NCBI GenBank assembly: GCA_021413765.1
Contig: JAIOPT010000028.1
Coordinates: 1-33,260 of the forward strand
Reading direction: 5' to 3'
DNA length: 33,260 nucleotides
DNA from: Betaproteobacteria bacterium
Lineage (GTDB): Bacteria > Pseudomonadota > Gammaproteobacteria > Burkholderiales > Gallionellaceae
Shown: positions 8,683 to 27,274 of the stretch, in pieces
Layout of the letters: each line of letters opens with the position of its first letter
Position numbering within the stretch: position 1 is the stretch's first letter
Notes under the pieces: generated by a model
Told to the model about the DNA's origin: nothing
The model's database searches: none
Seen by the model: the letters and a program-made list of their open reading frames with translations, nothing else
Made by a program: the position numbers and the translations under genes

Positions 8683-8734
8683 TTAGTTCTCCTCAATTTA
8701 TGTTTCAAGTGGTTCAAAATTACAGCCGAATAAC

Positions 8735-8747
8735 AGCCCTTGGGGCT
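8735..8747 (-). terminator. Small hairpin downstream of ettA
   Basis: AGCCC and GGGCT pair around a three-base loop, 60 bases past the ettA stop and before the sodB start. Only a short GTTATT tract follows on the minus strand, so this would be a weak terminator. It lies in the sodB leader or promoter region and could equally be part of that. Confidence 0.35.
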
Positions 8748-8806
8748 AAACAATCGATATTACAATAAAAGGCTAGTTGGGATTCACCCACTTCAGCCAA
8801 CAAAAC

Positions 8807-10809: not shown

Positions 10810-10907
10810 GGCGGGCCTCCCCGCATTGTAAGGTGGTGAACCTGGTCAGGTCCGGAAGGAAGCAGCCATATCCATTTACTGCAAGTGCCGGGGGCAAGGC
10901 TCGCCTC
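10810..10907 (+). ncRNA. ffs: Bacterial signal recognition particle RNA (4.5S)
   Basis: The universally conserved SRP domain IV core is present: the GGTCAGGTCCGGAAGGAAGC block runs from about 10844 to 10863 and is followed by AGCC. The flanks GGCGGGCCTCC (5') and GGCTCGCCTCC (3') pair to close the rod, with GTGCCGGGGGC on the distal arm, giving a small type of about 98 nt. The RNA binds Ffh and directs membrane-protein synthesis to the inner membrane. The exact ends are estimated from base pairing. It lies immediately upstream of pagL and dnaX; an ffs-dnaX neighbourhood is common in bacteria. Confidence 0.93.
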
Positions 10908-10936
10908 CCTATTCGAAATTCGAAACTGGAGTGGCA

Positions 10937-11467
10937 ATGAAAAAGATCTGTGTACTGATCGGTGCGATATTGTTGAATGGGAATGTGTGGGCCATAGATG
11001 GTGTTTCCGCTGAGATTGGCAGTGGCGATAAAACCAATATGGCGCGTATTGGCGCCCAATGGGATTGGGGAAAAAAGTGGTTTACCGACGGCAACTGGTT
11101 GGTGACTGGCTATTGGGAAGCTTCAGCTGGAAGTTGGAACGGCCCAAATAATGCGGGTAACAAATACAACATTACTGATGTCGGTTTTACGCCAGTATTT
11201 CGTTTGCAACAGAAAAATTTTTCCAGCTTGGCACCCTATCTGGAAGCAGGCATTGGAGTTCATCTGATTTCGGATGTACAAATCAATGCCGACCGTAGAT
11301 TTAGCACCGCCTTTCAATTCGGCGATCATCTCGGCACTGGCCTGCGTTTCGGTGATCGGCAGCAATATGATCTGGGTTATCGTTTTCAGCATCTATCCAA
11401 TGGTTCAATCAAGCATCCGAACCCAGGCATTAATTTTAGCCAAATCCGCCTTGCCTACCATTTTTGA
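10937..11467 (+). CDS. pagL: PagL-like lipid A 3-O-deacylase / acyloxyacyl hydrolase family
   Basis: A 176-residue outer-membrane beta-barrel protein with a signal peptide (KKICVLIGAILLNGNVWA). PagL removes the 3-O-linked acyl chain from lipid A at the outer leaflet. The family C-terminus is clear: YRFQHLSNGSIKHPNPG, containing the active-site His and Ser, and an aromatic terminal residue in LAYHF typical of outer-membrane barrels. The third triad position (Glu in the Pseudomonas enzyme, twelve residues after the Ser) is Asn in GINF, so activity is uncertain. ATG at 10937 is preferred (GGAG upstream); a GTG lies two codons earlier. It sits between ffs and dnaX. Confidence 0.85.
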   Translation: MKKICVLIGAILLNGNVWAIDGVSAEIGSGDKTNMARIGAQWDWGKKWFTDGNWLVTGYWEASAGSWNGPNNAGNKYNITDVGFTPVFRLQQKNFSSLAPYLEAGIGVHLISDVQINADRRFSTAFQFGDHLGTGLRFGDRQQYDLGYRFQHLSNGSIKHPNPGINFSQIRLAYHF

Positions 11468-11480
11468 GGCAGCGTAAACT

Positions 11481-13118: not shown

Positions 13119-13136
13119 GTTAAGGAGGGTAGGCAC

Positions 13137-13463
13137 ATGATGAAGGGCGGATTGGCCGGGATGATGAAACAAGCCCAGCAGATGCAACAGAACATGAAGA
13201 AGGCGCAGGACGAGCTTGCTACAGTCGAGGTGGAAGGCCAAGCTGGTTCCGGCATGGTGAAAGTAGTTATGACCTGTGCGCATGATGTGCGTCGCGTGAT
13301 GTTGGATAACAGCCTGTTATCAGACGATAAGGAAATGCTGGAAGATTTGATCGTGGCTGCAATGAATGATGCAATGAAACAGGTTGCTGCTGTGACCCAA
13401 CAAAAAATGGGTGGGTTCACAGCGGGCATGAATTTACCGCCCGGTTTAAGTTTGCCGTTCTGA
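13137..13463 (+). CDS. ybaB: YbaB/EbfC family nucleoid-associated protein
   Basis: A 108-residue DNA-binding protein of the YbaB/EbfC family. It begins [27 protein letters not shown], a helical coiled segment, and ends [17 protein letters not shown], both characteristic. Homologues bind DNA as dimers and are thought to shape the nucleoid. The gene has a strong AAGGAGGGT ribosome site and starts with two consecutive ATG codons, either of which could be used. It lies 18 bases after dnaX and 25 before recR, the conserved dnaX-ybaB-recR arrangement. Confidence 0.95.
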
Positions 13464-13488
13464 ATGCCTTAATGTTTTTGGTACTTGG

Positions 13489-14088
13489 ATGAACACGCCT
13501 TCCAGTCTGGATGAAATGATAGCCGCTTTGCGCTGCCTGCCCGGTGTTGGACCGAAATCTGCGCAGCGTATGGCATACCACTTGTTGCAACGCGACAAAC
13601 CAGGCGCAGTGCGGCTGGCGAAAGCGCTTGGCCATGCTGTGGAAAGTATCCATCATTGTGCTAAGTGTAATAATTTTTCCGAAGAAGAAATTTGCGCCTT
13701 ATGCCGTTCGTCCAAGCGTGATACTAGCCTGCTGTGTGTGGTGGAAATGCCTGCAGACTTGCTAATGATGGAGCAGGCACAGTGCTATCGCGGTATGTAT
13801 TTCGTGCTGATGGGACGACTTTCTCCACTGGATGGCATCGGCCCGCGTGAATTGCACCTGGATCGGCTGGTTAGGCGGGCACAGGAAAATACATGTGAAG
13901 TAATACTCGCCACTAATTTCACCGTAGAAGGTGATGCCACTGCACACTACATTACAATCTTGCTATGTGCGCAGGGCATCAAAGTGTCGCGCATTGCGCG
14001 TGGGCTGCCAGTAGGTGGTGAACTGGAGCATGTGGATAGTGGTACGCTGGCACAAGCCGTGTTGGAAAGGCGAGAGGTTACGGGATGA
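13489..14088 (+). CDS. recR: Recombination mediator protein RecR
   Basis: RecR works with RecF and RecO to load RecA on single-stranded gaps. The 199-residue protein shows the N-terminal helix-hairpin-helix ([21 protein letters not shown]), a four-cysteine zinc finger ([16 protein letters not shown]), a Toprim domain starting [15 protein letters not shown], and the closing [20 protein letters not shown] typical of the family. It overlaps the rluB start by four bases (ATGA), so the two are translationally coupled. The length is normal. Confidence 0.96.
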
Positions 14089-15035
14089 ACGAGCAAGCAA
14101 AGCAACCAGAACAACAAGGCGAGCGCTTGCAGAAGGTATTGGCGCAGGTCGGCTTGGGTTCCCGTCGTACTATGGAAGAATGGATTTCCGCTGGGCGCGT
14201 AACGGTGAATGGAGAAGTGGCGACGCTGGGTATGCGTGTGACCGAGGTCGATATAGTACGTGCCGATAAGCGCCTTGTTAACATTAGAACAAGTAACAAT
14301 AATTTGCCGCGTGTATTGTTGTATCACAAGCAAGAAGGCGAGATTGTTAGTCGCGATGATCCGGAAAAGCGTGCAAACGTATTCGACAAATTACCCAAAT
14401 TGCGGGGCATGAAATGGATTGCCATTGGACGGCTCGATTTCAATACCAGTGGACTGTTGATTTTTACTACCTCTGGCGATCTAGCTAATCGACTAATGCA
14501 CCCGCGCTTTGAAGTGGAACGCGAATACGCTGTGCGCGTGCAGGGCAGCATGACCGATGAGCAGATGGAGCAGATGGTGAAGGAAGGAATCACCTTGGAG
14601 GACGGTCCGGTAAAGTTCGAGAGGCTTACCGACGAAGGAGGTGAGGGCTACAACCATTGGTATCGCCTGATGTTGAAGGAAGGTCGAAATCGAATTGTGC
14701 GTCGTACTTTTGAGGCATTAGGTTTACCCATTAGCCGTTTAATTCGTGTGCGTTTCGGCATTGTTAATCTGCCGCCTCGCTTGAAGCGAGGCACGTTAGC
14801 AGAACTTGGCACAGGAGAGGTAAGCCAAATTCTTGACTGGGTGGGTATGGAATCAAAACCTGTCACGGAGAAAGCCGCTGAATCGACTGGAAGCAAGGCT
14901 GGACAACTTGATAATAAAAAAACGGATGCAGGGTATAAAATCAGAAAACTAGGCACGGGCATGAGTACCGCTCCACATGGCAAGACTGATGCACGCCGCA
15001 GCGCAACGCAGTTTAAAAATAAAGTGCGTTCCTGA
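14085..15035 (+). CDS. rluB: 23S rRNA pseudouridine(2605) synthase RluB
   Basis: This enzyme isomerises a uridine in domain V of 23S rRNA to pseudouridine. The 316-residue protein has an S4 RNA-binding domain near residues 13-60 ([16 protein letters not shown]...GRVTVNG) and a RsuA/RluB-type catalytic domain with the catalytic Asp at about residue 118 in [14 protein letters not shown]. The [24 protein letters not shown] motif is also present. The last ~60 residues are Lys/Thr/Ser-rich and low in complexity, a common disordered tail in RluB. RluB is preferred over RluE/RluF from length and the tail. It overlaps recR by four bases. Confidence 0.9.
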
Positions 15036-15093
15036 AATAGCCGCCAAGCTCTGATTATTCATTCCGGATATTTCAAGCTGCCAGGAAGTAACC

Positions 15094-15510
15094 ATGCAAC
15101 GGCAATTTAATCTTCAGCCTTCCATTTATTTTACGATCACGTTAGTTGCTTCGCATGGCGTAGCGCTTGCGGTTCTGGTTCCACTGGCTTTGCCATTATG
15201 GGCGAGGATACTACTGGCCTTGCTTGTGATAATCAGCTTGTTGTATCACGTGTGGCACGATGCCTGGTTGATAGCGCTATCCTCCAACAAAACGCTGCAG
15301 CTAGATGGAGATATGATCCTGTTGGTTGCGCGCAATGGGGATCAAGTGACTGCGCGGGTATTGGCCGATAGTCTGGTTACGCCCTATATAACAGTACTGA
15401 ATGTGTTGCCGCAAGGGTCTTACTTAGCGCGTAGCGTCATAATCCTGCCAGACAGCCTGGATACTGAATCTTTCCGTCAGCTTCGAGTGTGGCTCAGGTG
15501 GGGTAATTAG
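15094..15510 (+). CDS. YgfX/CptA-like membrane protein
   Basis: A 138-residue protein with two closely spaced N-terminal membrane segments (ITLVASHGVALAVLVPLAL and ARILLALLVIISLLYHVW) and a soluble C-terminal part ending SFRQLRVWLRWG. This topology and the R-x-W-L-R-W ending fit the YgfX family. In E. coli YgfX pairs with the flavinylation factor SdhE and has been described as a membrane toxin affecting cell shape; here no sdhE-like gene is adjacent. The identification is by pattern and is moderate. It lies 58 bases after rluB and may be in the same transcript. Confidence 0.65.
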   Translation: MQRQFNLQPSIYFTITLVASHGVALAVLVPLALPLWARILLALLVIISLLYHVWHDAWLIALSSNKTLQLDGDMILLVARNGDQVTARVLADSLVTPYITVLNVLPQGSYLARSVIILPDSLDTESFRQLRVWLRWGN

Positions 15511-15692
15511 TGTTTAACCCTTCATATTTGCAAGTTCACCGAATTCTCTGAATTTCCGCAGCGTTTCTCAATACACAGATCCTGCTTGATCCTTTGGATA
15601 AACAATACCACTCACAAGCAACGTTACAATCGAGGATGCAGTTCGACTTCCGTGAGGTTATTAAGGAAATTAATTTGAATCCGTGTATTTAG

Positions 15693-15719
15693 TTGTAAGA
15701 AAGTTTGGCTTTCTCCGAC
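15693..15719 (+). promoter_or_regulatory. Candidate ECF-type promoter upstream of bufA
   Basis: GTAAGA (about 15695-15700) and CCGAC (about 15716-15720) are arranged like an ECF sigma -35/-10 pair. Several bufferin operons in other proteobacteria are driven by ECF sigma factors recognising GTAAC-type -35 boxes. The spacer contains a perfect AGAAAG/CTTTCT dyad around TTTGG. No ECF sigma gene is present in the window, and this call rests on pattern only. Confidence 0.25.
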
Positions 15720-15775
15720 CAACGATCCAGGAGACAGAATCTCCCGGATTATCCACCAACAAAAGGAGTTTTACT

Positions 15776-16039
15776 TTGAACAATCATCAAATTTTATCAG
15801 CAGCAATCGGTAGCTTGTTAGCTCTTGGACTGGTCAGCAATGCCAGTGCTGCAGCCAAAAAAACTGACATGGAACAATGTTTTGGTATCGCCAAGGCGGG
15901 CAAGAATGATTGTTCCAGCAACAAGAGCGCGCATTCTTGTGCGGGCCAAGGCACTAAAAACAATGATGCTCAGGACTTCGTCGCCGTACCCAAAGGCACG
16001 TGTGACAAGATTGCTGGTGGCACTCTGAAAATGATGTAA
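15776..16039 (+). CDS. bufA: Bufferin-type RiPP precursor (DUF2282)
   Basis: An 87-residue precursor with a Sec signal peptide ([20 protein letters not shown]) and a mature DUF2282 core holding four conserved cysteines: [21 protein letters not shown] and [10 protein letters not shown]. Bufferins are recently described copper-binding ribosomal peptides in which the central cysteines are converted by a DUF692 (MNIO) enzyme. The mature peptide is exported through Sec and buffers copper in the periplasm. The start is TTG at 15776 with an excellent AAGGAG site; an upstream in-frame extension exists but breaks the signal-peptide pattern. Its stop overlaps the next ATG (TAATG), so it is the first gene of a coupled operon. 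Confidence 0.9.
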
Positions 16040-16914
16040 TGGGAAAGCCCGCAAACGATTCTTTGCCGTTCACCGCCGGTATCGGGTTGCGGGCACCTCA
16101 CTATTGTGAGGTGCTGGAGAAACTACCCAAGCTCGGCTGGGTGGAAGTGCATAACGAGAATTTTTTCGGAGGGGGTGCGTCCCTGCATACCTTGCTCAAG
16201 GTGCGCGAGCATTATCCCGTCAGCCTGCATGGCGTTGGGATGGGGCTGGCTTCAACTGCGCCGCTGGATCAGGCGCACTTATCTGCTTTGTATCGTCTTT
16301 GTGACGCGGTGCAACCCGCTGCCGTGTCGGAACATTTGTGCTGGAATTCTTTGCCAGACGTAACTATTAACGGTTCCATGGTCATAAACGACTTGGTCAT
16401 CAACGACTTGCTTCCGTTTCCCTATACCCAAGAGGCTCTTTCCCATGTGGCAAGACGTGTTGATCAAGTGCAGGAAAAACTTGCTCGCCGACTGCTGGTG
16501 GAAAACCTATCCAGTTACTTGTCTTTCACGAGCAGTGAAATGAGCGAGGGTGAATTTTTGTCTGAATTATCACTGCGCACTGGTTGTGCCATCCTGTTCG
16601 ATATCAACAACCTGTATGTAAATGCTCGAAACCTGGGTGTGGATGCCAAGGCATTTATACAAGCACTTCCGGCTGAAGCGGTGGCGGAATACCACCTTGC
16701 TGGACATAGCATAAGGGATGGCTGCCTGGTAGACACGCATAGTTCTCAAGTATGCGCCGAGGTGTGGGAGTTGTATGAGTTTGCCTTGCAACACATCGGG
16801 CCTCGCCCAACGTTGATCGAATGGGATAGCGATATACCCGAGTTGGCAGTATTGAAGGGTGAAGCAGAAAAAGCGCAGCAACGGATGGAGAAATACCATG
16901 CTTGTGTTAAATGA
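16039..16914 (+). CDS. bufB: DUF692 multinuclear iron-dependent oxidase (MNIO), bufferin maturase
   Basis: A 291-residue TIM-barrel-type protein of the DUF692/MNIO family. These enzymes use a cluster of iron ions and oxygen to rearrange cysteine residues of a precursor peptide. Metal-site motifs are visible in order: EVHNENFF, SLHGVGMG, SEHLCWN, LLVENLSSYLSF, LFDINNLYVNARN, EYHLAGHS, VDTHS and LIEWDSDIPE. Overlap with bufA (TAATG) and bufC fits the BufB role, installing thiooxazole-type modifications on BufA together with BufC. No signal peptide is seen, so it should act in the cytoplasm before export. The length is standard. Confidence 0.93.
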   Translation: MGKPANDSLPFTAGIGLRAPHYCEVLEKLPKLGWVEVHNENFFGGGASLHTLLKVREHYPVSLHGVGMGLASTAPLDQAHLSALYRLCDAVQPAAVSEHLCWNSLPDVTINGSMVINDLVINDLLPFPYTQEALSHVARRVDQVQEKLARRLLVENLSSYLSFTSSEMSEGEFLSELSLRTGCAILFDINNLYVNARNLGVDAKAFIQALPAEAVAEYHLAGHSIRDGCLVDTHSSQVCAEVWELYEFALQHIGPRPTLIEWDSDIPELAVLKGEAEKAQQRMEKYHACVK

Positions 16915-17680
16915 CGACCTGTCCGATTTTGCCCGTGCCATCGTGCGTAGCGAGGAGCCGTCGTCGCGGATCGACACGAGTTACCAGAATTATTCTGTCG
17001 CCATCGCCATAGAAGTTTATCGCAACAACTATCGCGGCAATCTGCATGACACACTTGCAGGCGCGTATCCGGTCATCGAGCAACTCGTGGGCAAGGATTT
17101 TTTCCGGCTGCTGACACGGCAATTCATCGGGCAACATTTTTCACGCAGCGGCAACCTGCATCACTATGGCGAGGGAATGGCAGGCTTTGTCGCGGCCTTC
17201 GAACCTGCGCAAGGACTGCCTTACTTGCCGGATGTCGCGGCGCTGGAATGGGCCTGCCACTGTGCCTATTTCGCAGACGATGCCGCCACACTGGACATCG
17301 GCAAGCTGGCGCAAATACCACCCGAGCAATATCCAGATCTGATCCTGCACGTCCACTCGGCATGTCATCTGGTGCGCTCCCGCTATCCGATCGCCGCCAT
17401 CTGGCATGCCCATCAACCCGGTGCGTCCGGTGACTTTAAGATTGACTTGGATAGTGGCTCCAGCAACGCTCTGGTTAGCCGCAAAAATGATGTTGCCTTG
17501 GTCAGCGAACTGACAGAAGCCGATGCAGCATGGCTGCAAAGTATACAAGTTGGAACTAAGTTGGAAGATGCAACTGCCGCCACGCTGGCGAACTATCCGG
17601 ATTTCGATTTACAAGCCGCGCTGCTGAATCTGGTTGCGCAAAACGTTCTTGCAAATTTTAACCTGGAAGCAGCTCCATGA
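16898..17680 (+). CDS. bufC: DUF2063 bufferin biosynthesis partner protein
   Basis: A 260-residue protein with an N-terminal DUF2063 (putative DNA-binding type) domain: LSDFARAIVRSEE...VEVYRNNYRGNLHDTLAGAYPVIEQLVG, followed by FRLLTRQFIGQHFSRSGNLHHYGEGMAGFV. In bufferin clusters this protein is thought to dock the precursor onto the MNIO enzyme; the old DNA-binding label is probably misleading. The middle region contains LPYLPDVAALEWACHCAYF, also typical. ATG at 16898, preceded by GGAG, is chosen over a longer in-frame start inside bufB. It overlaps bufB by 17 bases and doxX by four. Confidence 0.9.
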   Translation: MLVLNDDLSDFARAIVRSEEPSSRIDTSYQNYSVAIAIEVYRNNYRGNLHDTLAGAYPVIEQLVGKDFFRLLTRQFIGQHFSRSGNLHHYGEGMAGFVAAFEPAQGLPYLPDVAALEWACHCAYFADDAATLDIGKLAQIPPEQYPDLILHVHSACHLVRSRYPIAAIWHAHQPGASGDFKIDLDSGSSNALVSRKNDVALVSELTEADAAWLQSIQVGTKLEDATAATLANYPDFDLQAALLNLVAQNVLANFNLEAAP

Positions 17681-18120
17681 ACCTGTTATCACGCTTGGCA
17701 AGGTGTTACTACAAAGCATCTCACATGCCGGAATATCTGGCGCCTCTGATTGATCTGGGGCTGAGGTTGTATCTTGCGAATATTTTCTTCAAATCCGGTC
17801 TGACCAAGGTGCTAAGTTGGGACAGTACGTTGTACTTGTTCAGTGATGTCTATAATGTGCCGCTACTGCCACCTGAGGTGGCGGCATCAATGGCCGCCGG
17901 TGCAGAGCTAGGGCTATCTGCGCTGCTTGTATTGGGGCTGTTCGGACGGTTTGCCGCTGCTGGGTTGTTCATCCTCAATGTGGTCGCAGTCATTTCTTAT
18001 GCTGACCTAAGCGATGCAGGTATCAATCAACACTTATCTTGGGGCATTCTGCTCGGCGTATTGTTGATACTGAGTCGCGGCAACTGGTCGGTTGATGCTT
18101 GGTTGGAAAAACGATTATGA
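17677..18120 (+). CDS. DoxX family membrane protein of the bufferin operon
   Basis: A 147-residue protein with about four membrane segments: LIDLGLRLYLANIFFKSGLTK, AAGAELGLSALLVLGLFGRF, AGLFILNVVAVISY and LSWGILLGVLLILSRG. DoxX-family proteins are often encoded beside DUF2282/DUF692/DUF2063 genes, as here. Their exact role there is not proven; quinone-linked redox chemistry or export support are possibilities. The ATG overlaps the bufC stop by four bases, so the whole bufA-B-C-doxX set is translationally linked. Confidence 0.88.
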   Translation: MNLLSRLARCYYKASHMPEYLAPLIDLGLRLYLANIFFKSGLTKVLSWDSTLYLFSDVYNVPLLPPEVAASMAAGAELGLSALLVLGLFGRFAAAGLFILNVVAVISYADLSDAGINQHLSWGILLGVLLILSRGNWSVDAWLEKRL

Positions 18121-18159
18121 TAATTTATCTTTAAGTACCCTGAGTAAATCAAAGATTAT

Positions 18160-18165
18160 TATAAT
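18160..18165 (+). promoter_or_regulatory. Candidate -10 box for the haloperoxidase-like gene
   Basis: A perfect TATAAT lies 72 bases before the ATG at 18238, in the spacer after doxX. A GCACA/TGTGC dyad (18174-18191) sits directly downstream, where it could bind a repressor or fold in the leader. No good -35 hexamer is seen. Confidence 0.35.
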
Positions 18166-18237
18166 GCCAATCTGCACATGCTGAAGTGTGCGGAGAAAAA
18201 TGGCCATCATTTTTAATATCGATAGGAACTTAACATT

Positions 18238-19665
18238 ATGAAATTAATAAAAACAACAACTTATGCATCGGCAATAGTTTTGTTTGCGGTTACCCAATCA
18301 GCATTTTCAGCGGGTAATACTGTAGTAACAAAATGGAATGATGCCGCGCTGGAAGCCATACGAATTACCCATCCTGGCCCACCGATCGTTGCCAGATCAT
18401 TGGCAATCACCAATACCTGCATGTACGATGCTTGGGCAGCTTATGACAATAAAGCCAAAGGCACACGCCTTGGCAATAACTTGCGCCGCCCCAATGGTGA
18501 GCGTACTGCTACCAATAAAGAAAAGGCAGTTAGTTATGCAGCTTACAAATGTTTGTCCGATCTTTTCCCTACCGAAGTGGCAAGTTTTAATGCAGTAATG
18601 GCGACCTTGGGTTATAACGCTAACGATAATAGTGTTAACGTTGCAACAGCTGCTGGCATAGGTAACGTCGCTGCCAAAGCGGTGTTGGATTTCCGCCACC
18701 ACGACGGCTCTAATCAATTGGGCGATTTGAATCCTGGCGCATATTCAGATTACACTGGCTATACACCAGTCAATACACCGACAACGATTAATGATCCCAA
18801 CCGTTGGCAGCCATTGCAAATAGGTGCCAACGTACAAAAATTTATTGCGCCGCATTGGGGTAATGTAACTCCTTACGCCTTAAAATCCGGTAGCCAATTC
18901 CGCAAAACCTTGCCGAAACCCGCTGATTTTAACACTGAGCCAGCCCGGTATGATCTTCAAGCGCTGCAGGTTTTGGAATACAGTGCTCATCTAACTGATG
19001 AGAAAAAAGTTATCGCTGAATATTGGGCTGATGGTCCATCGTCTGAACTTCCTCCTGGACATTGGGTATTGTTTGCCGAGTTTGTGTCTGAACGCGACCA
19101 TAATTCGGTAGACAAAGATGTCAAAATGTTCTTCGCCATGACCAATGCGGTTCTTGATGCCAGCATTGCGAGTTGGGATGCTAAGCGGTTTTTTGATTAT
19201 GTAAGACCTGTCACCGCAATTCATCTGCTTTTTGCAGGTCAAACCGTACAGTCTTGGCAGGGTTCAATTGATGGTGCAAACTGGAAACCTTATCAAGCAG
19301 CCGATGTAGTAACGCCACCATTCTCAGAATACATTTCTGGACACAGCGTGTTTAGTGCCGCAGCTGCTGAATCATTGAAACTATTTACCAAAAGTGATAG
19401 TTTTGGTGGCAGCGTTACGATTCCGGCTGGGTCATCACGCGTTGAGCCAGGTTTGGTACCAGCAAAGGATACTGTCTTGTACTGGGCAACATTTAGTGAT
19501 GCGGCTGATGAAGCAGGTATTTCCAGACGTTTCGGTGGAATTCACTTTATAGATGGCGATTTGGAATCCCGTAAAGTAGGGCGTGTAATTGGTCAGCTAG
19601 CTTGGAAAAAATCGCAGAAGCTTTTCGGTGAAGAAGAGCATGAGCATGGACATTCTGATGACTAA
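18238..19665 (+). CDS. Secreted vanadium-dependent haloperoxidase-like protein (PAP2 superfamily)
   Basis: A 475-residue protein with a signal peptide (IKTTTYASAIVLFAVTQSAFSAG) and a vanadium haloperoxidase/acid-phosphatase-type fold. Active-site segments are in order: RPVTAIHLL near residue 325, EYISGHSVFSAAAAESL with the central histidine, and the C-terminal RRFGGIHFIDGD. Classical enzymes use peroxide to oxidise halides with vanadate; this clade is uncharacterised and could instead be a phosphatase. The C-terminus is rich in Glu and His (GEEEHEHGHSDD), a possible metal-binding tail. It is probably periplasmic or secreted. The gene stands alone, ended by a strong terminator. Confidence 0.85.
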   Translation: MKLIKTTTYASAIVLFAVTQSAFSAGNTVVTKWNDAALEAIRITHPGPPIVARSLAITNTCMYDAWAAYDNKAKGTRLGNNLRRPNGERTATNKEKAVSYAAYKCLSDLFPTEVASFNAVMATLGYNANDNSVNVATAAGIGNVAAKAVLDFRHHDGSNQLGDLNPGAYSDYTGYTPVNTPTTINDPNRWQPLQIGANVQKFIAPHWGNVTPYALKSGSQFRKTLPKPADFNTEPARYDLQALQVLEYSAHLTDEKKVIAEYWADGPSSELPPGHWVLFAEFVSERDHNSVDKDVKMFFAMTNAVLDASIASWDAKRFFDYVRPVTAIHLLFAGQTVQSWQGSIDGANWKPYQAADVVTPPFSEYISGHSVFSAAAAESLKLFTKSDSFGGSVTIPAGSSRVEPGLVPAKDTVLYWATFSDAADEAGISRRFGGIHFIDGDLESRKVGRVIGQLAWKKSQKLFGEEEHEHGHSDD

Positions 19666-19709
19666 AATTTCTTAGCAGTCGGCCAAGAATATTGGTTTAC
19701 GGTAGTTTA

Positions 19710-19745
19710 GGGGGCCACTAGCAATGGCCCCCTTACTTTTTTTAA
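19710..19745 (+). terminator. Rho-independent terminator
   Basis: GGGGGCC and GGCCCCC form a seven-base-pair stem around ACTAGCAAT, followed by a T-rich tract, 45 bases after the stop of the haloperoxidase-like gene. Confidence 0.9.
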
Positions 19746-19814
19746 ATTTATAGCGTGACTAATTTGTATTGTAAATACTTTGGGTGAATTTTTTACCATG
19801 GGGATGTATAAATA

Positions 19815-20039
19815 ATGCGTATAGGCTCCCGCAACATGTTCACCTCGACTGACAATACGGTGAGCTTGCCGGGCTACACCAGATTAGATGGGGCGTTATA
19901 TGCCAAACTTGATAAAAGTCTGCGCTTACAGTTGAATGTTGAGAATCTACTTAATAGATACTATTTCTTATCTGCCAACAACAACATCTCACCCGGTTCG
20001 CCTATAGCAGCTCGTGTATCGATAATCGGTGTTTTTTAG
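19815..20039 (+). pseudogene. TonB-dependent siderophore receptor, C-terminal remnant
   Basis: The 74-residue frame matches only the last strands of a TonB-dependent receptor: RIGSRN...NTVSLPGYTRLDGALYAKLDKSLRLQLNVENLLNRYY, then NNNISPGSPIAARVSIIGVF, with the terminal Phe typical of outer-membrane barrels. The family is usually about 700 residues, so roughly 90 percent is missing. No signal peptide or plug domain is present, and upstream there is only about 70 bases of AT-rich DNA after the terminator. It is best seen as a deletion remnant marking a former receptor gene. An ATG happens to lie at the break, but a functional product is unlikely. Confidence 0.8.
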
Positions 20040-20050
20040 ATGTGCCTAGT

Positions 20051-20080
20051 GTAAAAAGCATGCATCTGGCACCTTTTTAC
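20051..20080. terminator. Hairpin between the TonB remnant and the response regulator
   Basis: GTAAAAAG and CTTTTTAC form a perfect eight-base-pair stem, with GTGCC/GGCAC also able to pair nearby. It is located between two convergent genes and could terminate either, but the stem is AT-rich and so weak. Confidence 0.4.
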
Positions 20081-20106
20081 AATAAACAGCTCCGTAATAA
20101 TTAGCG

Positions 20107-21510
20107 TCAGTCAGCAAATGATGCGCTATTTATCTTGTGTTTCTCCATACGGTATCGAAGCGTATCTCGGCTAATTCCAAGTAGCACTGCCGCTTTTGAC
20201 ACATTACCTTTTGTTTCAATAAGCGCATTATTCAGCAATTTGCGTTCCATTTGATCTAGTGAAGATTCACCAAAATATTCAGGATTTTTAACACCGCTTT
20301 TATGTAATAAAGACTCGTTTTGAGTTTCGCTGGTTGGGTGAATCAGTAGGTCATTCGGCCCAATATTTAAAACATCGGCTAATAAGACAGCCTGCTCAAC
20401 AACATTACGTAGTTCGCGTACATTCCCTGGCCATGAGTGTAAAACGATAGACCTTTCAGCCTCGTCAGAAAATTTTAGTGATGTTTTCCGGTAGCGGTGT
20501 GAAAAAATATCTAGGAAATGTCGTGCCAACAATAGAGCATCACCTTCTCGCTCTCGCAATGGCGGCGCAGAAATCTGTAATACGCGCAACCTAAAATAAA
20601 GGTCGGCACGAAATAGTCCCTGACTAATCCGCATCTCTAAGTTCTGATTTGTCGCGGTGATAATTTGAAGATTAACATGTCGTTCCTGAACTGAGCCTAA
20701 TCGACGAAAACGGCCATCCTCAATGACCCTAAGCAACTTTGCCTGTAAAGATTGGGGCATTTCACCAATCTCATCCAGGAAGAGAGTGCCTCCATCGGCG
20801 GCCTCGAAAAGACCAATTTTTCGCTCTTTGGCATCCGTAAATGCGCCACGTTCATGGCCTAGTAACTCTGATTCAAGGAGGTTTTCAGGAATCGATGCGC
20901 AGTTCACTTCAATGAAAGGCTTCTCACTTCGACTGCTACAAAAATGACATGAACGCGCGATGAGCTCTTTGCCAGTGCCAGTTTCACCTATGATCAGCAC
21001 GGGAGGTAAGTTATCTCCCGTATTAATTCCGGCGATTTTAGATATTGTCTTTTTAAGGTTTAGAATTGCTTGACTGCTACCTACTATCTCATTAAGGCTG
21101 CCAAGACTTTGTTCTCTGGCTTCGTAGTATTTCAAGCGAGCGCTTTCAAGCTGGCGCTGAGATAGCTGGTTAATACGTTCACGCAAATCACCTAAGGCAA
21201 TAGGCTTAGTCATCAGGTCATTTGCGCCAGCTTTAATTGCATTAACTGCTAGCGTTATGCTGCCGTGCCCTGTAATCATAATAATGGGAATATCAGCATT
21301 CAATTCACGAATTTGTGAAATGACTGCTAGACCGTCCATATCTGGCAACTTGTAATCAAGAACGACAATGTCTGGTGGAGATGCTTTAATAGCTTCTATT
21401 CCATCTGCTGCTGTGCCTGCTGTCATGACGTTGTGATTACTCTTATCAAGAAATTTTGCCGCATTCTTGGCAAAAACAAGTTCGTCATCGATGATTAGTA
21501 TAGATGCCAT
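20107..21510 (-). CDS. Sigma54-dependent response regulator (NtrC family)
   Basis: A 467-residue activator with three domains. The receiver domain has acidic residues D8/D9 and phosphoacceptor D52 in VVLDYKLPD, with K102 in TKP. The AAA+ domain has Walker A GETGTGKE at 175-182, the sigma54-contact loop as GAFTDA (222-227, instead of GAFTGA), Walker B GGTLFLDEIGEM, and FRADLYFRL. The C-terminal Fis-type helix-turn-helix is KGNVSKAAVLLGISRDTLRYRMEKH. Phosphorylation by the adjacent kinase should allow it to open sigma54 promoters. It lies four bases after the kinase. The obvious target is the sigma54 promoter at 23067. The GAFTDA variant occurs in other active family members. Confidence 0.93.
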   Translation of the reverse strand: MASILIIDDELVFAKNAAKFLDKSNHNVMTAGTAADGIEAIKASPPDIVVLDYKLPDMDGLAVISQIRELNADIPIIMITGHGSITLAVNAIKAGANDLMTKPIALGDLRERINQLSQRQLESARLKYYEAREQSLGSLNEIVGSSQAILNLKKTISKIAGINTGDNLPPVLIIGETGTGKELIARSCHFCSSRSEKPFIEVNCASIPENLLESELLGHERGAFTDAKERKIGLFEAADGGTLFLDEIGEMPQSLQAKLLRVIEDGRFRRLGSVQERHVNLQIITATNQNLEMRISQGLFRADLYFRLRVLQISAPPLREREGDALLLARHFLDIFSHRYRKTSLKFSDEAERSIVLHSWPGNVRELRNVVEQAVLLADVLNIGPNDLLIHPTSETQNESLLHKSGVKNPEYFGESSLDQMERKLLNNALIETKGNVSKAAVLLGISRDTLRYRMEKHKINSASFAD

Positions 21511-21514
21511 AGTT

Positions 21515-22873
21515 TTAACCTCTAGGTAAAACTATCTTCACAATCGTACCATTTCCGGGATTATCACGGAGCTCAATCGTGCCATTGAATCGCTCAATAA
21601 TTTTAAGTGCTAATGGCAGGCCAAGACCAAGACCTTTGGGTTTTGTTGTAAAAAATGGGCGGAAAATTTTGCTCTTAACCTCAGGTGTTACTCCGCAACC
21701 AGTATCAGCAATTTCAATACATACAGAATGACTTCCTTCATCCATTAATTTCACCGTACAGCGTCCTCCACTTCTCATGGCTTCAGCTGCATTTGAAAGA
21801 ACACAGTGAAAAACTTGCTGCAAGAGCACATCGTCGGCTAGAACAGAAGGATGACTGGCTGTCGAAGATAATTCTAGAGTGAGCTGCTTTTGTTCAAATG
21901 AATGAAGGTGATGGGAAATACAGTGATCTAATGTGGCTTTAAGATCAATAGAGGTAGCCTGCTTGGTATCTTCAACTGAGAAATTGAGAAGTTCAGAAAT
22001 TTGCCGACCAATTCGATCTACTTCAAGGATAATATCTTTTGCCTGCTCGGAGCAGTTTTCCTTGGGTGACTCAAGTGCCAATTCGGCAGCAGAGCGAATA
22101 GAAGACAAGGGGTTTCTAATATTGTGGGCAATAGATGCAGCAAGCTCCCCTACTACTGCCAAGGTCTCAGTCTCAATTAAGCGTGAATGCTGACGTTTGA
22201 TTACTTTATCAGCACGACGAACAATCCAAAACAGCGACCAAAATAGTATTAGAGCGCTGGCAATGGCAGCTAACCAAACCTGGTTCCGCCCCTCTTTAAT
22301 GGCCTTTGTTAGCTCAATTGGAGCTCTATAGAACTCGACTACCCCAATGATCTTACCCGTTACAGGTTGAATTATGGGTATGTAGCACTCAACAAAATAT
22401 TCTATCGCTGGACTTATGCCAATATGCTCCTTTTTTTCCAAAGTCAATTTGGAAATATGTGCAGGGTGGATAACAAGCTCGCCTTTCAATGCGTCTTCGA
22501 GCTCGTCATTATCTTTAGGAAATCGCTGCCCAATCATTTTAGGGTCACTCGACCAGAGAATTAACCCGTCTGGCTTGTAGATATTAGCTCGCAACAGGTC
22601 ATGCATATTATTATTGTGCTCATCAGTATTACTGAATTTGGCCGCTAGGTCTTGATCGTCTGGGTCAGCTAGGTAATTTAAGGAACCGTCTGCAACTAAA
22701 ATATTTCTAATGAAATCTTGGCTCAGCTCTCCCTCTCGTTGGAAAATATGAGAGCTAAGGAAAGTTGATATTAGAAGTGCTTGGGCGATTGCAATTCCTG
22801 CAATCACGGTCAAGCTCAGCCACCCAAACCAGTGAAGTAATTTGAATGGATTGCCTTGGTTATTTTTTAGCAT
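21515..22873 (-). CDS. Membrane sensor histidine kinase
   Basis: A 452-residue kinase with two membrane segments (WFGWLSLTVIAGIAIAQALLI and VWLAAIASALILFWSLFWIV) flanking a periplasmic sensor region of about 160 residues. The region resembles a Cache-type ligand domain (ends YIPIIQPVTGKIIGVVEFYRAP). The phosphoacceptor His is in ASIAHNIRNPLSSIRSA (about residue 250). The ATPase has N-box SNAAEAMRSGG, then IADTGCGV and FFTTKPKGLGLGLPL. It should phosphorylate the neighbouring sigma54 regulator; the signal is unknown. An ATG at 22909 would add 12 residues but sits right after a TATAAT, while 22873 has GGAG upstream and is preferred. Confidence 0.9.
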   Translation of the reverse strand: MLKNNQGNPFKLLHWFGWLSLTVIAGIAIAQALLISTFLSSHIFQREGELSQDFIRNILVADGSLNYLADPDDQDLAAKFSNTDEHNNNMHDLLRANIYKPDGLILWSSDPKMIGQRFPKDNDELEDALKGELVIHPAHISKLTLEKKEHIGISPAIEYFVECYIPIIQPVTGKIIGVVEFYRAPIELTKAIKEGRNQVWLAAIASALILFWSLFWIVRRADKVIKRQHSRLIETETLAVVGELAASIAHNIRNPLSSIRSAAELALESPKENCSEQAKDIILEVDRIGRQISELLNFSVEDTKQATSIDLKATLDHCISHHLHSFEQKQLTLELSSTASHPSVLADDVLLQQVFHCVLSNAAEAMRSGGRCTVKLMDEGSHSVCIEIADTGCGVTPEVKSKIFRPFFTTKPKGLGLGLPLALKIIERFNGTIELRDNPGNGTIVKIVLPRG

Positions 22874-22911
22874 TGCCGTACTCCGCTTAATTGTTCTAAC
22901 GTCTTGCATGC

Positions 22912-22917
22912 ATTATA
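22912..22917 (-). promoter_or_regulatory. Candidate -10 box for the kinase-regulator operon
   Basis: On the minus strand a perfect TATAAT lies two bases before an ATG at 22909. If used, the transcript would begin a few bases inside that reading frame, supporting the downstream start at 22873. The -35 region is AT-rich without a clear match. Confidence 0.4.
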
Positions 22918-22967
22918 AAAGTACGGTGTTAAAAAAGTTTTTTACTCGCATAGAATACTCTAAAACT

Positions 22968-23004
22968 GGGGATATTCACCATTTATAGGTGGGTCAAATG
23001 CCCC
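22968..23004. promoter_or_regulatory. Candidate enhancer (activator-binding) dyads
   Basis: GGGG...CACC (22968-22980) and GGTG...CCCC (22988-23004) form a nested, roughly symmetric dyad, and TTGGCTGACCAA (23017-23028) is a second small palindrome. Relative to a predicted start near 23093 the first dyad lies at about -90 to -125, the usual position of sigma54-activator binding sites. The link to the neighbouring regulator is inferred. Confidence 0.4.
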
Positions 23005-23031
23005 ATTTTCCCTAGTTGGCTGACCAAGGTA

Positions 23032-23061
23032 ATTATTAACCAATTGATAATCATTAATAAT
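23032..23061. repeat. AT-rich inverted repeat next to the sigma54 promoter
   Basis: ATTATTAA (23032-23039) and TTAATAAT (23054-23061) are perfect inverted copies with a 14-base centre, directly upstream of the -24 element. It could bind an AT-preferring protein such as IHF or H-NS, or simply ease bending between enhancer and promoter. Confidence 0.45.
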
Positions 23062-23066
23062 TTATA

Positions 23067-23082
23067 TGGCATGATATTTGCT
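23067..23082 (+). promoter_or_regulatory. Sigma54 (-24/-12) promoter
   Basis: TGGCATGATATTTGCT matches the sigma54 consensus TGGCACG-N4-TTGCW at every specified position except one (T for C), with exactly ten bases between the GG and GC pairs. Transcription should start near 23093, giving a leader of about 60 bases to the ATG at 23157. The adjacent divergent gene pair encodes a sigma54-activating two-component system. Confidence 0.85.
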
Positions 23083-23156
23083 TCAATAAAGGTGGCGTCA
23101 TTAAGGAGTTTCGCATGGCACTCGTTATTGATTTATTTCAAATTTGGAGAAACATC

Positions 23157-24695
23157 ATGAAAAAATACAAGCATGATTCAAAATCAAGGACCATCAAGCA
23201 TGCCTGCGGCGCAGTCCTGACATTGTCCCTGTTCGCGGCGGCATCAGCGGCTAACGCCGTGGTCGCTCTAATTGGGGGGCTCGGTAATTTTGATGCAGCT
23301 AACTATGAGGGACAGAATGCTTACGGCTTCGAAATTAAGATTGAGGGCCTTCAAGCTAGCGATTTATCGCAGTCATGGACTGGTAACAAATTTGGCAACC
23401 CTCTCATCGAAAATTATGCGACAGGGGTTTATGTGCGCTACCAGAGTGCTTATGACCCAGTTGCTTTGAAGTTCGTTTCGGCCACAGTCCCAAGGGCAGG
23501 CTCAAGCTTGACATCTTTTGCAGGAGCTTGTTACATGGGGTATCCATCCTACAACAATGCAGGATGTGACCATTTTGGCGTTCATATAAATTATGCTGCC
23601 CTGTCGAAAGTTACAAATACTTCATATCGTTGGATGTTCGAGGATTCTGCCAATCCTGGACACTTGGTTGGTTCGACCACTACCATAATGGTTCCGACTC
23701 CGACTTATTCCTTCCCTGATCCAGCCACTCAAGAAATCGCAGCAACAATCGAATTGCCACCGACACCACCGGCGCCTATACCGCAATATGGCGATGCGAC
23801 TTGGGTAAAGGTATTCAAAACAGAACTCACGCGCGCAGTCAAACTAGACGAATTGGTCGATACAAACGCGATTGTCCCTCAGGATGCTACTCAGCTTGAG
23901 ACAGATTATAAATTGATGCAGGCTAGCCCACCACCCGAATCGGGTGGCAACCACAAGCAAAACGGCAAGCTGGTTAACCAAGGTTCACCGAATAGTGGCT
24001 CTAAGGCAGTCATTCGCCGCTATGAGTCCTATGAGTACACTGGCGCCTATGACGCAATCACCCATGAGGCCCTTTGTGCTGATCCCACATGCAGCGTTCC
24101 TATATCTACTGAAATTGGTAACATACTTGCCGCACAAATGGCCGCCGTGAACATCAATGTTCCGTCGTTGACGGTCACTAAAGTCGGCACTGGCAACGTC
24201 GCTTCTGCAGACAAAATTATCAGTTGTGGCAGCAAATGCACCTCACCTTATGCGCTGGGCACAGTTATTGCCCTAACCGCCCAAGCTGCCAGTAATAATA
24301 CCTTTGCTGGATGGGCCGGGGTCGGGGCTGAGCTTTGCACAGGCACTACGCTTACCTGTAACGTCACTATCAGCGATGCTATGAATATCTCAGCGACATT
24401 TAACGCTGTAGTGGCAACTGGTGGTGGCGGCGGCGGTGGTGGTGGTGGCGGTAGTACAGCCGCAACTCTGACAGTAAAAACATCGGGTGGCAAAGGAACT
24501 ATCACCAGCAACCCAGCAGGTATCTTGTGTGGAAATATCTGTTCGATGAGTCTGAGCGGCAAAGTCATTGCGCTTACCGCAACACCTGATGCTGGATTCC
24601 ACTTTGTAAACTGGTCAGGGGCATGTACGGGTACCTCATGTACAGTAGTGGGGAATACCAGTTTGTCAGTACAGGCAAACTTCGCAAAAAATTAG
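23157..24695 (+). CDS. Secreted protein with two Cys-containing bacterial repeat domains and poly-Gly linker
   Basis: A 512-residue exported protein. The signal peptide is KHACGAVLTLSLFAAASAANA. Mature residues up to ~325 form an unrecognised region (NFDAANYEGQNAYGFEIKIEGLQASDL early, then a Pro-rich stretch and RRYESYEYTGAYDAITHEALC). Two divergent InlB-type repeats follow: SLTVTKVGTGNV...CGSKC...LTAQA...FAGWAG, and TLTVKTSGGKGTI...CGNIC...LTATPDAGFHFVNWSGAC. A run of 11 glycines links them. Paired cysteines suggest disulfides outside the cytoplasm. No PEP-CTERM, LPXTG or barrel anchor is seen. ATG at 23157 has GGAG upstream; an in-frame ATG at 23115, also with GGAG, would put 14 extra residues before the signal peptide. 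Function unknown; probably sigma54-controlled. Confidence 0.8.
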   Translation: MKKYKHDSKSRTIKHACGAVLTLSLFAAASAANAVVALIGGLGNFDAANYEGQNAYGFEIKIEGLQASDLSQSWTGNKFGNPLIENYATGVYVRYQSAYDPVALKFVSATVPRAGSSLTSFAGACYMGYPSYNNAGCDHFGVHINYAALSKVTNTSYRWMFEDSANPGHLVGSTTTIMVPTPTYSFPDPATQEIAATIELPPTPPAPIPQYGDATWVKVFKTELTRAVKLDELVDTNAIVPQDATQLETDYKLMQASPPPESGGNHKQNGKLVNQGSPNSGSKAVIRRYESYEYTGAYDAITHEALCADPTCSVPISTEIGNILAAQMAAVNINVPSLTVTKVGTGNVASADKIISCGSKCTSPYALGTVIALTAQAASNNTFAGWAGVGAELCTGTTLTCNVTISDAMNISATFNAVVATGGGGGGGGGGGSTAATLTVKTSGGKGTITSNPAGILCGNICSMSLSGKVIALTATPDAGFHFVNWSGACTGTSCTVVGNTSLSVQANFAKN

Positions 24696-24809
24696 AATAT
24701 TTTTTGCGTAATAAACTTTGAATTTTTTGGATCAACATTGGCTTCAGTGTAACTGCTGGAGTCTTTGTCCATCGTGGGCCGTGTTGGGCTAACTATTAAT
24801 TCGGCCAGC

Positions 24810-24843
24810 CACCCGGTATTCCGGGTGAGCTTTATTTTAATTT
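24810..24843 (+). terminator. Terminator or attenuator hairpin between the two secreted-protein genes
   Basis: CACCCGG and CCGGGTG form a perfect seven-base-pair stem with a TATT loop, followed by AGCTTTATTTTAATTTT. It ends 20 bases before the next ATG, so it may terminate the first gene or act as an attenuator giving less of the second product. Confidence 0.75.
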
Positions 24844-24863
24844 TATAATTTTGGAGATCTATT

Positions 24864-25307
24864 ATGTTTAATTTAAAAAAGCTTTTAATTGCATCCTTCA
24901 CTGTAGTTGGCATTTCCAGTTCGTTGATGGCAAATGCTGCTTCTGACGATGCCTTGGCATGCAGCGTGGCGGTGAACTTTACTTCAAGCTCAGGAAGTTT
25001 AACCTATGCGAAGGTTTTTGAGGTTAGTCCCACGGCTCCATTTTCTGACGACTTTTCGACTCTGATACGTTTCAAATTTTTCGATGCATCGATGACCGTT
25101 GAGTCCGGCATTCCGGTAGTTAAAATTAATTTCGATGCCGATGTCAGTGTATTCAATGCAGTCGGCTTTGAAGCTTCGTTAAAAGTGCGCGATGCAAGTA
25201 ACGGAGAAACCATTTCGGGTAACAATGCTTTTTATAGCTCAGTACCAGGTGGAGGCGGTGCCAACGTGACTAAATATACGTTGGCCTGCAAGCGCGCAAA
25301 AATCTGA
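24864..25307 (+). CDS. Small secreted protein, unknown function
   Basis: A 147-residue protein with a typical signal peptide (KKLLIASFTVVGISSSLMANA, cleavage near residue 25). The mature ~122 residues are beta-rich and Ser/Val/Phe-rich and hold two cysteines, one near each end (DALACSV and TLACKRAKI), which could pair. A short GGGG turn (VPGGGGANV) lies near the C-terminus. No family is recognised. TTGGAG gives a good ribosome site for the ATG. It follows the larger secreted protein, separated by a hairpin, and may be made in a lower or separate amount from the same promoter. A weak sigma54-like TGG-N11-GC element is seen at 24775-24790. Confidence 0.75.
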   Translation: MFNLKKLLIASFTVVGISSSLMANAASDDALACSVAVNFTSSSGSLTYAKVFEVSPTAPFSDDFSTLIRFKFFDASMTVESGIPVVKINFDADVSVFNAVGFEASLKVRDASNGETISGNNAFYSSVPGGGGANVTKYTLACKRAKI

Positions 25308-25768
25308 TTGCCGCATTTACAACACGCGGTATTTGTGTGAGTTTTGCATCTACCGCTGTTAGAACGTGCAGGCACCATATATAAATCCAGGGTGGATTAA
25401 AGTGGTGCTGAGTGTCGGTAAAACAGCGGCAGTTGCTGTGGGCACTGGGCAGCAATTTTTAATATGACCAGTGTAGAAAATAATTCGCTTTCAACACCGC
25501 ACAATTCCCGCTAGAGAAATGGCAGCATAATGATCGACAAAAGGTAATTTTCCTGCTGCCACTTGCAGACAATATGGGGGCTTAGCAAACTTATTATCAG
25601 GGTATTATGCTAGACATGTTTGCGGCGAAAGCGTCCTGCCAATTCAATCTTAGCGAGATTTTCCTACAGCCAGTGAGTGTAATCATCTCACCTATGTAAT
25701 TTTTACCGATGGCGTAGATGCGCTACATCAAGCCAACACTCCTTGTTGCACTTCGAAATTGAATCCGC
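25308..25768. other. Non-coding stretch between secreted-protein gene and lysS
   Basis: About 460 bases without a supportable gene on either strand. It holds the GCACCA/TGGTGC nested hairpin (25372-25408), a GTAG/CTAC dyad near 25708-25729, and a 26-base segment next to the lysS stop (25744-25769) that resembles the terminus of an IS30-type element. It is probably decayed intergenic or mobile DNA. Confidence 0.5.
25372..25408. repeat. Nested perfect hairpin
   Basis: The outer arms GCACCA (25372-25377) and TGGTGC (25403-25408) enclose inner arms AATCCA (25384-25389) and TGGATT (25393-25398) around GGG. Both stems are perfect. It is not followed by a T tract, so it is not a standard terminator; it may be a dispersed repeat or a structured RNA piece. 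Confidence 0.5.
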
Positions 25769-27274
25769 CTATCTTTCGGGGCGCATTTGCGGAAACAAGA
25801 TTACATCGCGGATGCTGGGGCTATTGGTGAGCAGCATTACCAGACGGTCTATTCCGATTCCTTCTCCGGCGGTAGGCGGCAAGCCATATTCCAGCGCACG
25901 AATGTAATCGCTGTCCTTGAACATTGCTTCTTCGTCACCTGCCTCCCTAGCCTTTACCTGTGCATCAAAGCGCGCTTCCTGGTCTTCTGGGTCATTCAAC
26001 TCGGAGAAGCCATTGGCGATTTCGCGTCCAACCATAAACAATTCAAACCGCTCGGTAATTTCCGGGCGCGTATCGCTACGCCGCGCAAGTGGTGATGCTT
26101 CTGCTGGGTAGTCAATGATGAAAGTTGGTTCGAATAGCTGATGCTCGGCCAGCTCTTCAAACAGCGAAAGTTGCAGTCCGCCCACGCCATCCGCTGCCCT
26201 GTATTTGGCCTTCAGGTCTTGTAATTCGTTGACTAGAAAATTGCGGTCGTTCAACTGCTCGTCAGAAAACTGCGGATGATATTTTTGGATTGCCTGTGCC
26301 ATGGTCAGGCGATGGAACGGTTGTCCCAAGTCGAGCTCTCGTCCCTGATAAGAGAGCACAGTGGTGCCCAGCACCTTGCGCGCCACTTCGCTAAACAGCT
26401 TTTCAGTAAAGTCCATCAGGTAACGATAATCCCGGTAGGCTTCATAAAACTCGATCATGGTGAACTCCGGGTTATGCCGCGTAGAAAGCCCCTCGTTGCG
26501 AAAGTTACGGTTGATTTCGAATACCTTCTCAAAGCCGCCTACCACCAGCCGCTTGAGATATAACTCCGGCGCAATGCGCAGATACAGCTGCATGTCCAAA
26601 GCATTGTGATGCGTGGTAAAGGGTTTGGCCGATGCGCCGCCCGGAATGGAATGCATCATAGGTGTCTCGACTTCGAGGTAATCGTGGCGTATGAAAAATT
26701 CCCGGATAGCCTGGATTACCTTGGAGCGGATAATAAATGTATTGCGTGTGTCCTCATTGGTGATGAGATCTACATGCCGCTGGCGGTATTTTTGTTCCTG
26801 ATCGCTCAGACCGTGAAACTTTTCCGGTAGCGGGCGTAGTGCTTTAGTCAACAGACGCAGCCCGGTAACACGCACAGAAAGTTCACCGGTCTTGGTTTTA
26901 AACAGTACACCTGTTGCTCCAAGAATGTCACCCAGATCATGGTGCTTGAATGCATCATGCGCTACTTCGCCGGTATCGTTATTGTTAATGAATAGCTGGA
27001 TGCGTCCGCTCATGTCATGCACAGTGGCAAAGCTGGCTTTGCCCATAACGCGCTTTAACATCATGCGCCCGGCTACAGCCACGCTAACTTGTGCTGCTTC
27101 CAGTTCGTCGTGACTCATTGCTCCGTAAGCAGCATGTAAATCACCGGCCAGATTTTTGCGCTCAAAATCATTCGGGAAAGCGATGCCGTCTTGGCGAAGT
27201 GCAGTGAGCTTGGCGCGGCGCTCGGTGATGATTTGATTTTCGTCTTGCTGAGGTATCGTTGGTTCGGTAGTCAT
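25769..27274 (-). CDS. lysS: Lysine--tRNA ligase, class II
   Basis: This enzyme charges tRNA-Lys with lysine. The 501-residue protein has an N-terminal OB-fold anticodon-binding domain ([29 protein letters not shown]), the class II motif 2 region [23 protein letters not shown], and motif 3 [11 protein letters not shown] near the C-terminus, ending FPQMRPE. ATG at 27274 gives [13 protein letters not shown], the family-like start; the frame extends 21 codons further without support. No ribosome site is obvious. It is the last gene of the conserved recJ-prfB-lysS order on the minus strand. Confidence 0.95.

Follow-up and report, generated by a model that had tools for sequence, protein, structure and literature searches.

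Does a membrane histidine kinase with an NtrC-type response regulator control the divergently transcribed gene of a secreted protein, here called P1, through the sigma54 promoter that lies between them? This question is raised by a stretch of 33,260 nucleotides (the window), contig C8 of a Gallionellaceae metagenome-assembled genome (MAG) of 2.53 Mb that is 86% complete, with about one-seventh of the genome missing. On balance, we favor the reading of a small accessory sigma54 two-component circuit of the ZraPSR kind, carried as one block and aimed at P1. Judged from the sequence, such a circuit is real and probably functional, of a known kind, and with an uncharacterised output.

A sigma54 promoter between the kinase and P1 genes

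The open reading frames (ORFs) used here are mechanical calls. On the minus strand, the gene of the histidine kinase (HK) precedes that of the response regulator (RR), and on the plus strand, P1 is followed by a gene for a second, small secreted protein, P2 (Table 1). A membrane kinase and NtrC-type regulator divergent from secreted genes had been described in the first-pass annotation, and the ORFs, the Pfam domains, and the hydropathy of the HK bear this out. The receiver, sigma54 AAA+, and Fis helix-turn-helix domains of the RR all exceed their Pfam cut-offs, which gives the NtrC-type domain set, and the protein carries the motif DYKLPD and a GAFTDA loop in place of the canonical GAFTGA. 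GAFTDA is probably a working variant of this loop; it also occurs in RR relatives from two other genomes (G033 and G523, see below), and the other three full activators of the MAG have GAFTGA. In the HK, hydrophobic segments near residues 24-56 and 209-233 are followed by the HisKA and HATPase domains, and the stretch between the two segments has no match to any Pfam family.

The 205-bp gap between the HK and P1 genes contains TGGCATGATATTTGC (23067-23081), which differs from TGGCACG-N4-TTGC by one mismatch. With a simple weighting of our own (maximum 13.2) it scores 12.5, which no other place in the window reaches, in agreement with the near-perfect -24/-12 promoter that had been noted upstream of P1. 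Across the MAG, TGGCANG-N4-TTGC occurs 18 times (9 per strand) versus 2 times for the reversed control. Fifteen of these 18 sites are located inside ORFs of more than 150 amino acids, and the three outside are the site at 23067, one without a clear gene behind it, and one before a PEP-CTERM-type gene. The later of the two P1 starts in Table 1 is the more likely one, a ribosome-site-like sequence being present at both.

The gap also contains inverted repeats. Aside from the two dyads in Table 1, there is a perfect AT-rich dyad, TAAAAAAGTTTTTTA, at 22930, and AT-rich dyad arms at 23031-23062 lie near the promoter. Dyads at enhancer distance, as claimed earlier, are present, but their recurrence in the relative from G033 was no better than in shuffled sequences (see below); they are not demonstrated above chance, and an enhancer role is conjectural. 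The promoter had also been thought to drive both secreted genes, but the terminator-like hairpin between P1 and P2, matched in stability by 2 of 200 shuffles, makes a single promoter for both genes doubtful and a P1-P2 operon no more than possible. Terminator-like sites number 11 in 19600-25800, this hairpin included, versus 5.6 in shuffles.

In the circuit that we propose, the HK would sense something periplasmic and phosphorylate the RR, which would bind the shared intergenic region and activate sigma54-RNA polymerase at 23067. P1 would then be switched on, and perhaps P2 too, the latter either by read-through of the terminator or from a separate promoter. At the cell surface, the exported P1 might act as the effector, or it might feed back on the HK, as ZraP does on ZraSR.

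Table 1. Coordinates of the block and of the features in and around the HK-P1 gap
Feature	Position	Strand	Basis or remark
Lineage-specific block, ends approximate	19788-25768		TonB-receptor remnant, RR, HK, P1, and P2; ~6,000 bases
Probable 3' remnant of a TonB-dependent receptor gene	19818-20039	+	PF00593 E 5.9e-4; left block edge
RR, NtrC-type sigma54 activator	20107-21510	-	PF00158 E 1.1e-64, PF00072 E 8e-29, PF02954 E 1e-13
HK, membrane histidine kinase	21515-22909	-	PF00512 and PF02518, kinase motifs, hydropathy
Candidate enhancer dyad TGGGTCAAATGCCCCA	22990-23005		6/8 paired; ~60 nt upstream of promoter
Second small dyad TTGGCTGACCAA (TTGG-CTGA-CCAA)	23016-23027		By eye
Sigma54 -24/-12 promoter TGGCATGATATTTGC	23067-23082	+	Motif match, weighted score; start near 23093 inferred from spacing
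P1, secreted protein	23157-24695 (alternative start 23115)	+	Signal peptide; PF18998 E 4.1e-13, 2 stretches
Terminator-like hairpin, T-rich tail	24810-24827	+	Between P1 and P2; -21.5 kcal/mol, z -2.6
P2, small secreted orphan protein	24864-25307	+	ORF; no Pfam or NCBIfam match

A lineage-specific block and the neighbors of its relatives

The island had been called self-contained, and this is supported by the finding that RR, HK, P1, and P2 are jointly missing at the same spot in relatives. We compared lysS-side regions from 12 same-genus genomes (11 of ~20 kb and one of 2.6 kb; one of the twelve, L214, has less than 1 kb past lysS); all 12 match lysS, and none gives a blastn match of more than 150 bp to 19788-25724. 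The genome G101 (L215) has an empty site, in which window position 19787 is joined to 25774 via ~380 unrelated nt: a vanadium-haloperoxidase-like gene (18238-19665; DUF6851, VCPO_2nd) is kept up to 19787, and lysS follows after the ~380 nt. In G111 (L210), which is syntenic from 1388 to 18116 with 91-93% identity, position 18116 is joined to 25769 via 96 nt and then lysS, so the haloperoxidase-like gene is missing there too. The G+C content of the block is 44.1% versus 49.4% and 50.1% in the flanks, and that of the adjoining haloperoxidase-like gene, outside the block, is also 44%. The absence of the block in relatives favors a gain in this lineage, although it might also reflect losses. The TonB-receptor remnant reported in the first-pass annotation does show a PF00593 match, but at 20.3 bits this falls below the cut-off of 27. 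A mobile element with its own machinery was considered and rejected, since there is no tRNA in the window and no integrase-like match among the proteins scanned; one direct repeat, imperfect and of 22 nt, was found in 18000-25900.

To place P1, its N region was used in a scan of named genomes, which gave 308 matched stretches across several phyla, with record titles including Acidobacteria, Planctomycetes, Methylococcaceae, Burkholderiales, Alphaproteobacteria, Corallococcus, Nitrospiraceae, actinobacteria, and others, and named strains including Methylomonas and Roseateles. The best 80 of the 308, a non-random choice with E-values relative to the candidates only, were used, and the resulting neighborhood set consists of 84 loci (L060-L139, L003, and L043-L045; 85 rows, as L046 duplicates L003). 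Around these P1 relatives, response-regulator genes number 14 at up to 1 kb (160.6 kb of sequence), 6 at 1-2.5 kb (217.6 kb), and 3 at 2.5-8 kb (641.3 kb). Eleven of the 84 loci have such a gene within 1 kb and 16 within 2.5 kb (12 lineages, grouped by our own reading of record titles). With random anchors inside these same best-scoring loci, which served as background in place of other PEP-CTERM genes, the mean within 1 kb was 2.6 and the maximum in 500 draws 6, versus the 11 observed. A binomial test on gene counts gave ~1e-6, and ~9e-4 when collapsed to lineages. Kinase genes are likewise enriched, and the two-component types are non-orthologous.

The strict four-gene set was not found again: in the 84 P1 loci a full NtrC-type regulator is lacking (the best match has 56 bits), as is any P2 relative, and among 158 family genomes, the own MAG included, P2 occurs in the own MAG only. 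Co-occurrence of kinase, regulator, and secreted genes thus holds in a looser form than first suggested, with the same genes together nowhere else in the genomes searched but with other two-component systems beside P1 relatives above background.

For the kinase-regulator pair itself, the ten best candidates per genome were scored. HK matches at E 1e-30 occur in 6 of the 158 family genomes, own included, and RR matches at E 1e-105 in 2; outside the own genome only G033 reaches both thresholds. A class-wide sample of 369 genomes gave matches to the sensor region at E <=1e-8 in 18, own included, with G523 as the best. Identities are 43% (RR) and 32% (HK) for the pair in G033, and 45% and 39% for that in G523. 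The G033 pair adjoins two exported-protein genes, one of 783 amino acids, with weak -24/-12-like sites that score 10.5 and 10.7, where ~0.2 sites of such score are expected per 400 bp. The 783-residue protein was rejected as a P1 relative (hhalign probability 0.1). By eye, the piece from G523 presumably encodes c-type cytochromes and extracytoplasmic function (ECF)-sigma-like proteins, and a related kinase in G311 is, as we read it, paired with a NarL-like regulator.

Known systems and competing explanations

The arrangement of the window resembles that of ZraPSR. ZraR acts on the divergent sigma54 promoters of zraSR and of the periplasmic-protein gene zraP, and in E. coli and Salmonella it binds their shared spacer (PMC8249747, PMC4987338). 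Here too, a membrane kinase and an NtrC-type RR, with the kinase first in the operon, are divergent from an exported-protein gene, and a sigma54 promoter for the latter is located in the shared spacer. The statement that no system with such a layout was known does not hold, given ZraPSR. There are also differences: the RR scores 312.2 bits against the ZraR cut-off of 760, the HK 156.4 against the ZraS cut-off of 479, neither P1 nor P2 has a ZraP-like match in Pfam or NCBIfam, and on the kinase side the highest-scoring sigma54-like sequence in ~300 bp reaches 9.6 of 13.2, short of a good site.

The exosortase-associated PrsK/PrsR circuit shares sigma54, an NtrC-type RR with a membrane HK, and secreted targets. 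Its upstream site averages ~63 nt before the promoter, comparable to the ~60 nt of the candidate dyad, and Haft's motif 1 is a 17-mer that ends in TTTACA and lies upstream of the sigma54 site (PMC1569441). In Aquincola, a PEP-CTERM gene has been shown to depend on RpoN for its expression (PMC9850573). However, the RR reaches 378.4 bits against the cut-off of 502.6 for TIGR02915, and the HK 89.7 against 300 for TIGR02916; neither TTTACA nor TGT-N11-ACA occurs in 22910-23066; and, as had been observed in the first-pass annotation, neither P1 nor P2 has a PEP-CTERM signal at its C terminus or a match to a PEP-CTERM family. Membership in this group was rejected on the model cut-offs, the motif, and the target tag. 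A paper on EmbRS does not concern the system of the window (PMC3684757). AtoS/AtoC and other NtrC-family pairs are alike in domain architecture, and the RR scores 377 bits with the AtoC model, as high as with PrsR but below the AtoC cut-off of 714. The window's neighbors are exported, in contrast to the metabolic role that we assume for AtoC from its model name.

Which activator would use the promoter depends on what else the MAG encodes. It has rpoN and four genes with a full sigma54-activator domain, one of them the RR, whose identity to the MAG's other activators is 35-37%; in addition, C58 and C126 give partial matches that exceed the cut-off. One full activator is NtrC (706 bits, cut-off 558), another has GlrR as its best model, with 612 bits below the cut-off of 763, and a third we take to be PilR-like from its neighbor genes; none of the four attains the PrsR cut-off. 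As the only full activator without a housekeeping guess in this 86%-complete genome, the RR is the natural candidate. Still, a real promoter might be used by another activator, either the GlrR-like or PilR-like one or a PrsR missing from the MAG, while the HK and RR control genes elsewhere. A near-perfect intergenic site (G000:C62:1194) precedes a PEP-CTERM-type gene and is accompanied by a 17-mer ending in TTTACA, which suggests that a Prs-like circuit probably exists in the MAG even though no full activator attains the PrsR cut-off, and an exosortase locus of the XrtA type is present. Since the TTTACA end is absent upstream of P1, and activator genes commonly adjoin their targets, we consider use by another activator unlikely. 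That HK-RR and P1-P2 were merely acquired together by chance, with no regulatory link, would be in line with the four-gene set being found once only in the genomes searched and with the receptor remnant at the block edge, which suggests unrelated debris in the block. Such hitchhiking is improbable, however, given that a site of this quality is expected by chance at ~7e-4 on the plus strand of the 205 bp (from 9 forward matches in 2.53 Mb, own site included) and that two-component genes repeatedly adjoin P1 relatives. P1 could also be cargo of an exosortase regulon that lost its sorting tag, considering that 31 of 85 P1-family rows have PEP-CTERM-like tails by a rough regular expression and that the MAG has the XrtA-type locus. 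Yet P1 itself ends in an InlB repeat, a tail that 27 of 85 rows share across several phyla; this points to a long-standing alternative more than to a recent loss and makes a lost tag very improbable.

Several observations weigh against the ZraPSR-like circuit that we favor. One-mismatch matches to TGGCACG-N4-TTGC are not rare, with five in the window, although the other four are inside ORFs, and allowing two mismatches gives 21 matches, close to the 15.2 that shuffles average. Upstream of P1 relatives, sigma54-like sites show no enrichment and no conserved promoter was found: none of the 85 rows has a site scoring at least 11.5 (12.5 in the window), and p<0.05 was reached in 2 of 85. The typed neighbors of P1 relatives are OmpR- or NarL-like, or hybrids, and not NtrC: out of eight regulators typed, seven were nearest to the PmrA, QseB, and MtrA models, which we take to be of the OmpR family, and one to MctR and UvrY, presumably NarL-type, all below the cut-offs. 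The closest P1 relatives among the best 80 of 308, L060 and L061 (N-region identity 59%; MAGs titled uncultured Methylococcaceae), have no two-component genes nearby. A conserved enhancer was rejected, as the best segment shared by the window and G033, the similar 15-mers GGGTCAAATGCCCCA and GGCTCAAATGTCCCA, was equalled in score by 18 of 60 shuffles. Of the three good -24/-12-like sites in G523, one follows the RR gene at a distance of 260 bp, and the others lie 8-9 kb off. We nonetheless retain the circuit as a ZraPSR-like arrangement with an uncharacterised cargo, and regard the family of its output as the more interesting lead: a secreted family without Pfam match that is found beside sensor systems far above background in 84 loci offers a handle on function, either as a sensor accessory or as a regulated output.

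The P1 family, P2, and other genes

P1 had been described as a secreted Cys-rich repeat protein. A signal peptide and repeats are present, but the latter amount to two InlB B-repeats behind a larger, Pfam-less N region: a signal peptide is followed by the N region (~23265-24164) and by repeats at ~24168-24407 and ~24483-24692, the PF18998 match scoring 49.6 bits against a cut-off of 23.6. In the own family, 22 of 158 genomes match P1, mostly with the repeat tail alone, and the N region is found in one other genome (G105, 33% identity). With 63 aligned N-region members, Pfam at E 0.01 gave no match save a weak one to a herpesvirus model (E 0.0056), surely by chance. An AlphaFold2 model based on these 63 sequences is mostly strand, with a predicted local distance difference test score (pLDDT) of 85.6. 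The sequence has no relative in the PDB at E 1, and Foldseek gave no match at E 0.001 (best E 5e-3, template modeling score 0.14). The weak Foldseek matches are largely Ig- and fibronectin-like, on which we base the guess that the N region is probably a tandem beta-sandwich. A literature search, judged partly on titles and the starts of abstracts, found no paper describing this family.

The C-terminal tails vary: the 85 rows comprise 31 PEP-CTERM-like, 27 InlB-repeat, and 27 other tails, as classed by a rough regular expression and repeat search in which L088 is an apparent false positive and L136 a miss. Dockerin-like tails occur in L103 (Pfam match) and, by similarity, in L104 and L108, from records titled Methylococcaceae and Methylobacter. 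Seven of the 84 loci (L098, L102, L109, L110, L116, L119, and L127) have cytochrome b561 genes at most 2.5 kb from the P1 relative, with none farther out, and a dihaem cytochrome c is present as well in L109, L110, and L116. Tentatively, the N region may define an undescribed secreted family whose members serve as dedicated extracytoplasmic partners, for ligand binding or as output, of two-component systems. On separate occasions it would have become linked to PmrA/QseB-like, MtrA/PhoB-like, NarL-like, and hybrid systems and, in the window, to an NtrC/sigma54 type, in some cases with the two cytochromes above alongside, and its C-terminal module (PEP-CTERM, dockerin, or InlB repeat) would have been swapped; we rate this proposal as possible rather than probable.

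P2 has no relatives in the 157 other family genomes, viral contigs, plasmids, or the 84 P1 loci, and matches to the PDB are at E 0.18 or worse; its structure model (pLDDT 40) was not used. P1 itself matches two plasmid records, neither with a place covering 80% of P1. An InlB-repeat open frame of 728-746 amino acids, matching mainly the P1 tail, is present in 11 of 18 same-genus genomes and on the own contig C153 (L002, L005-L008, and L010-L016). At the G000:C62:1194-1208 site mentioned above (L151), which combines the -24/-12 site with a TGT-N11-ACA 17-mer, the PEP-CTERM-type gene is broken by a stop codon and has a similar second copy behind it. Outside the block, the window encodes an MbnB/TglH/ChrH-type modification enzyme for ribosomally synthesized and post-translationally modified peptides (RiPPs) at 16039-16914 (PF05114, E 2.6e-98).

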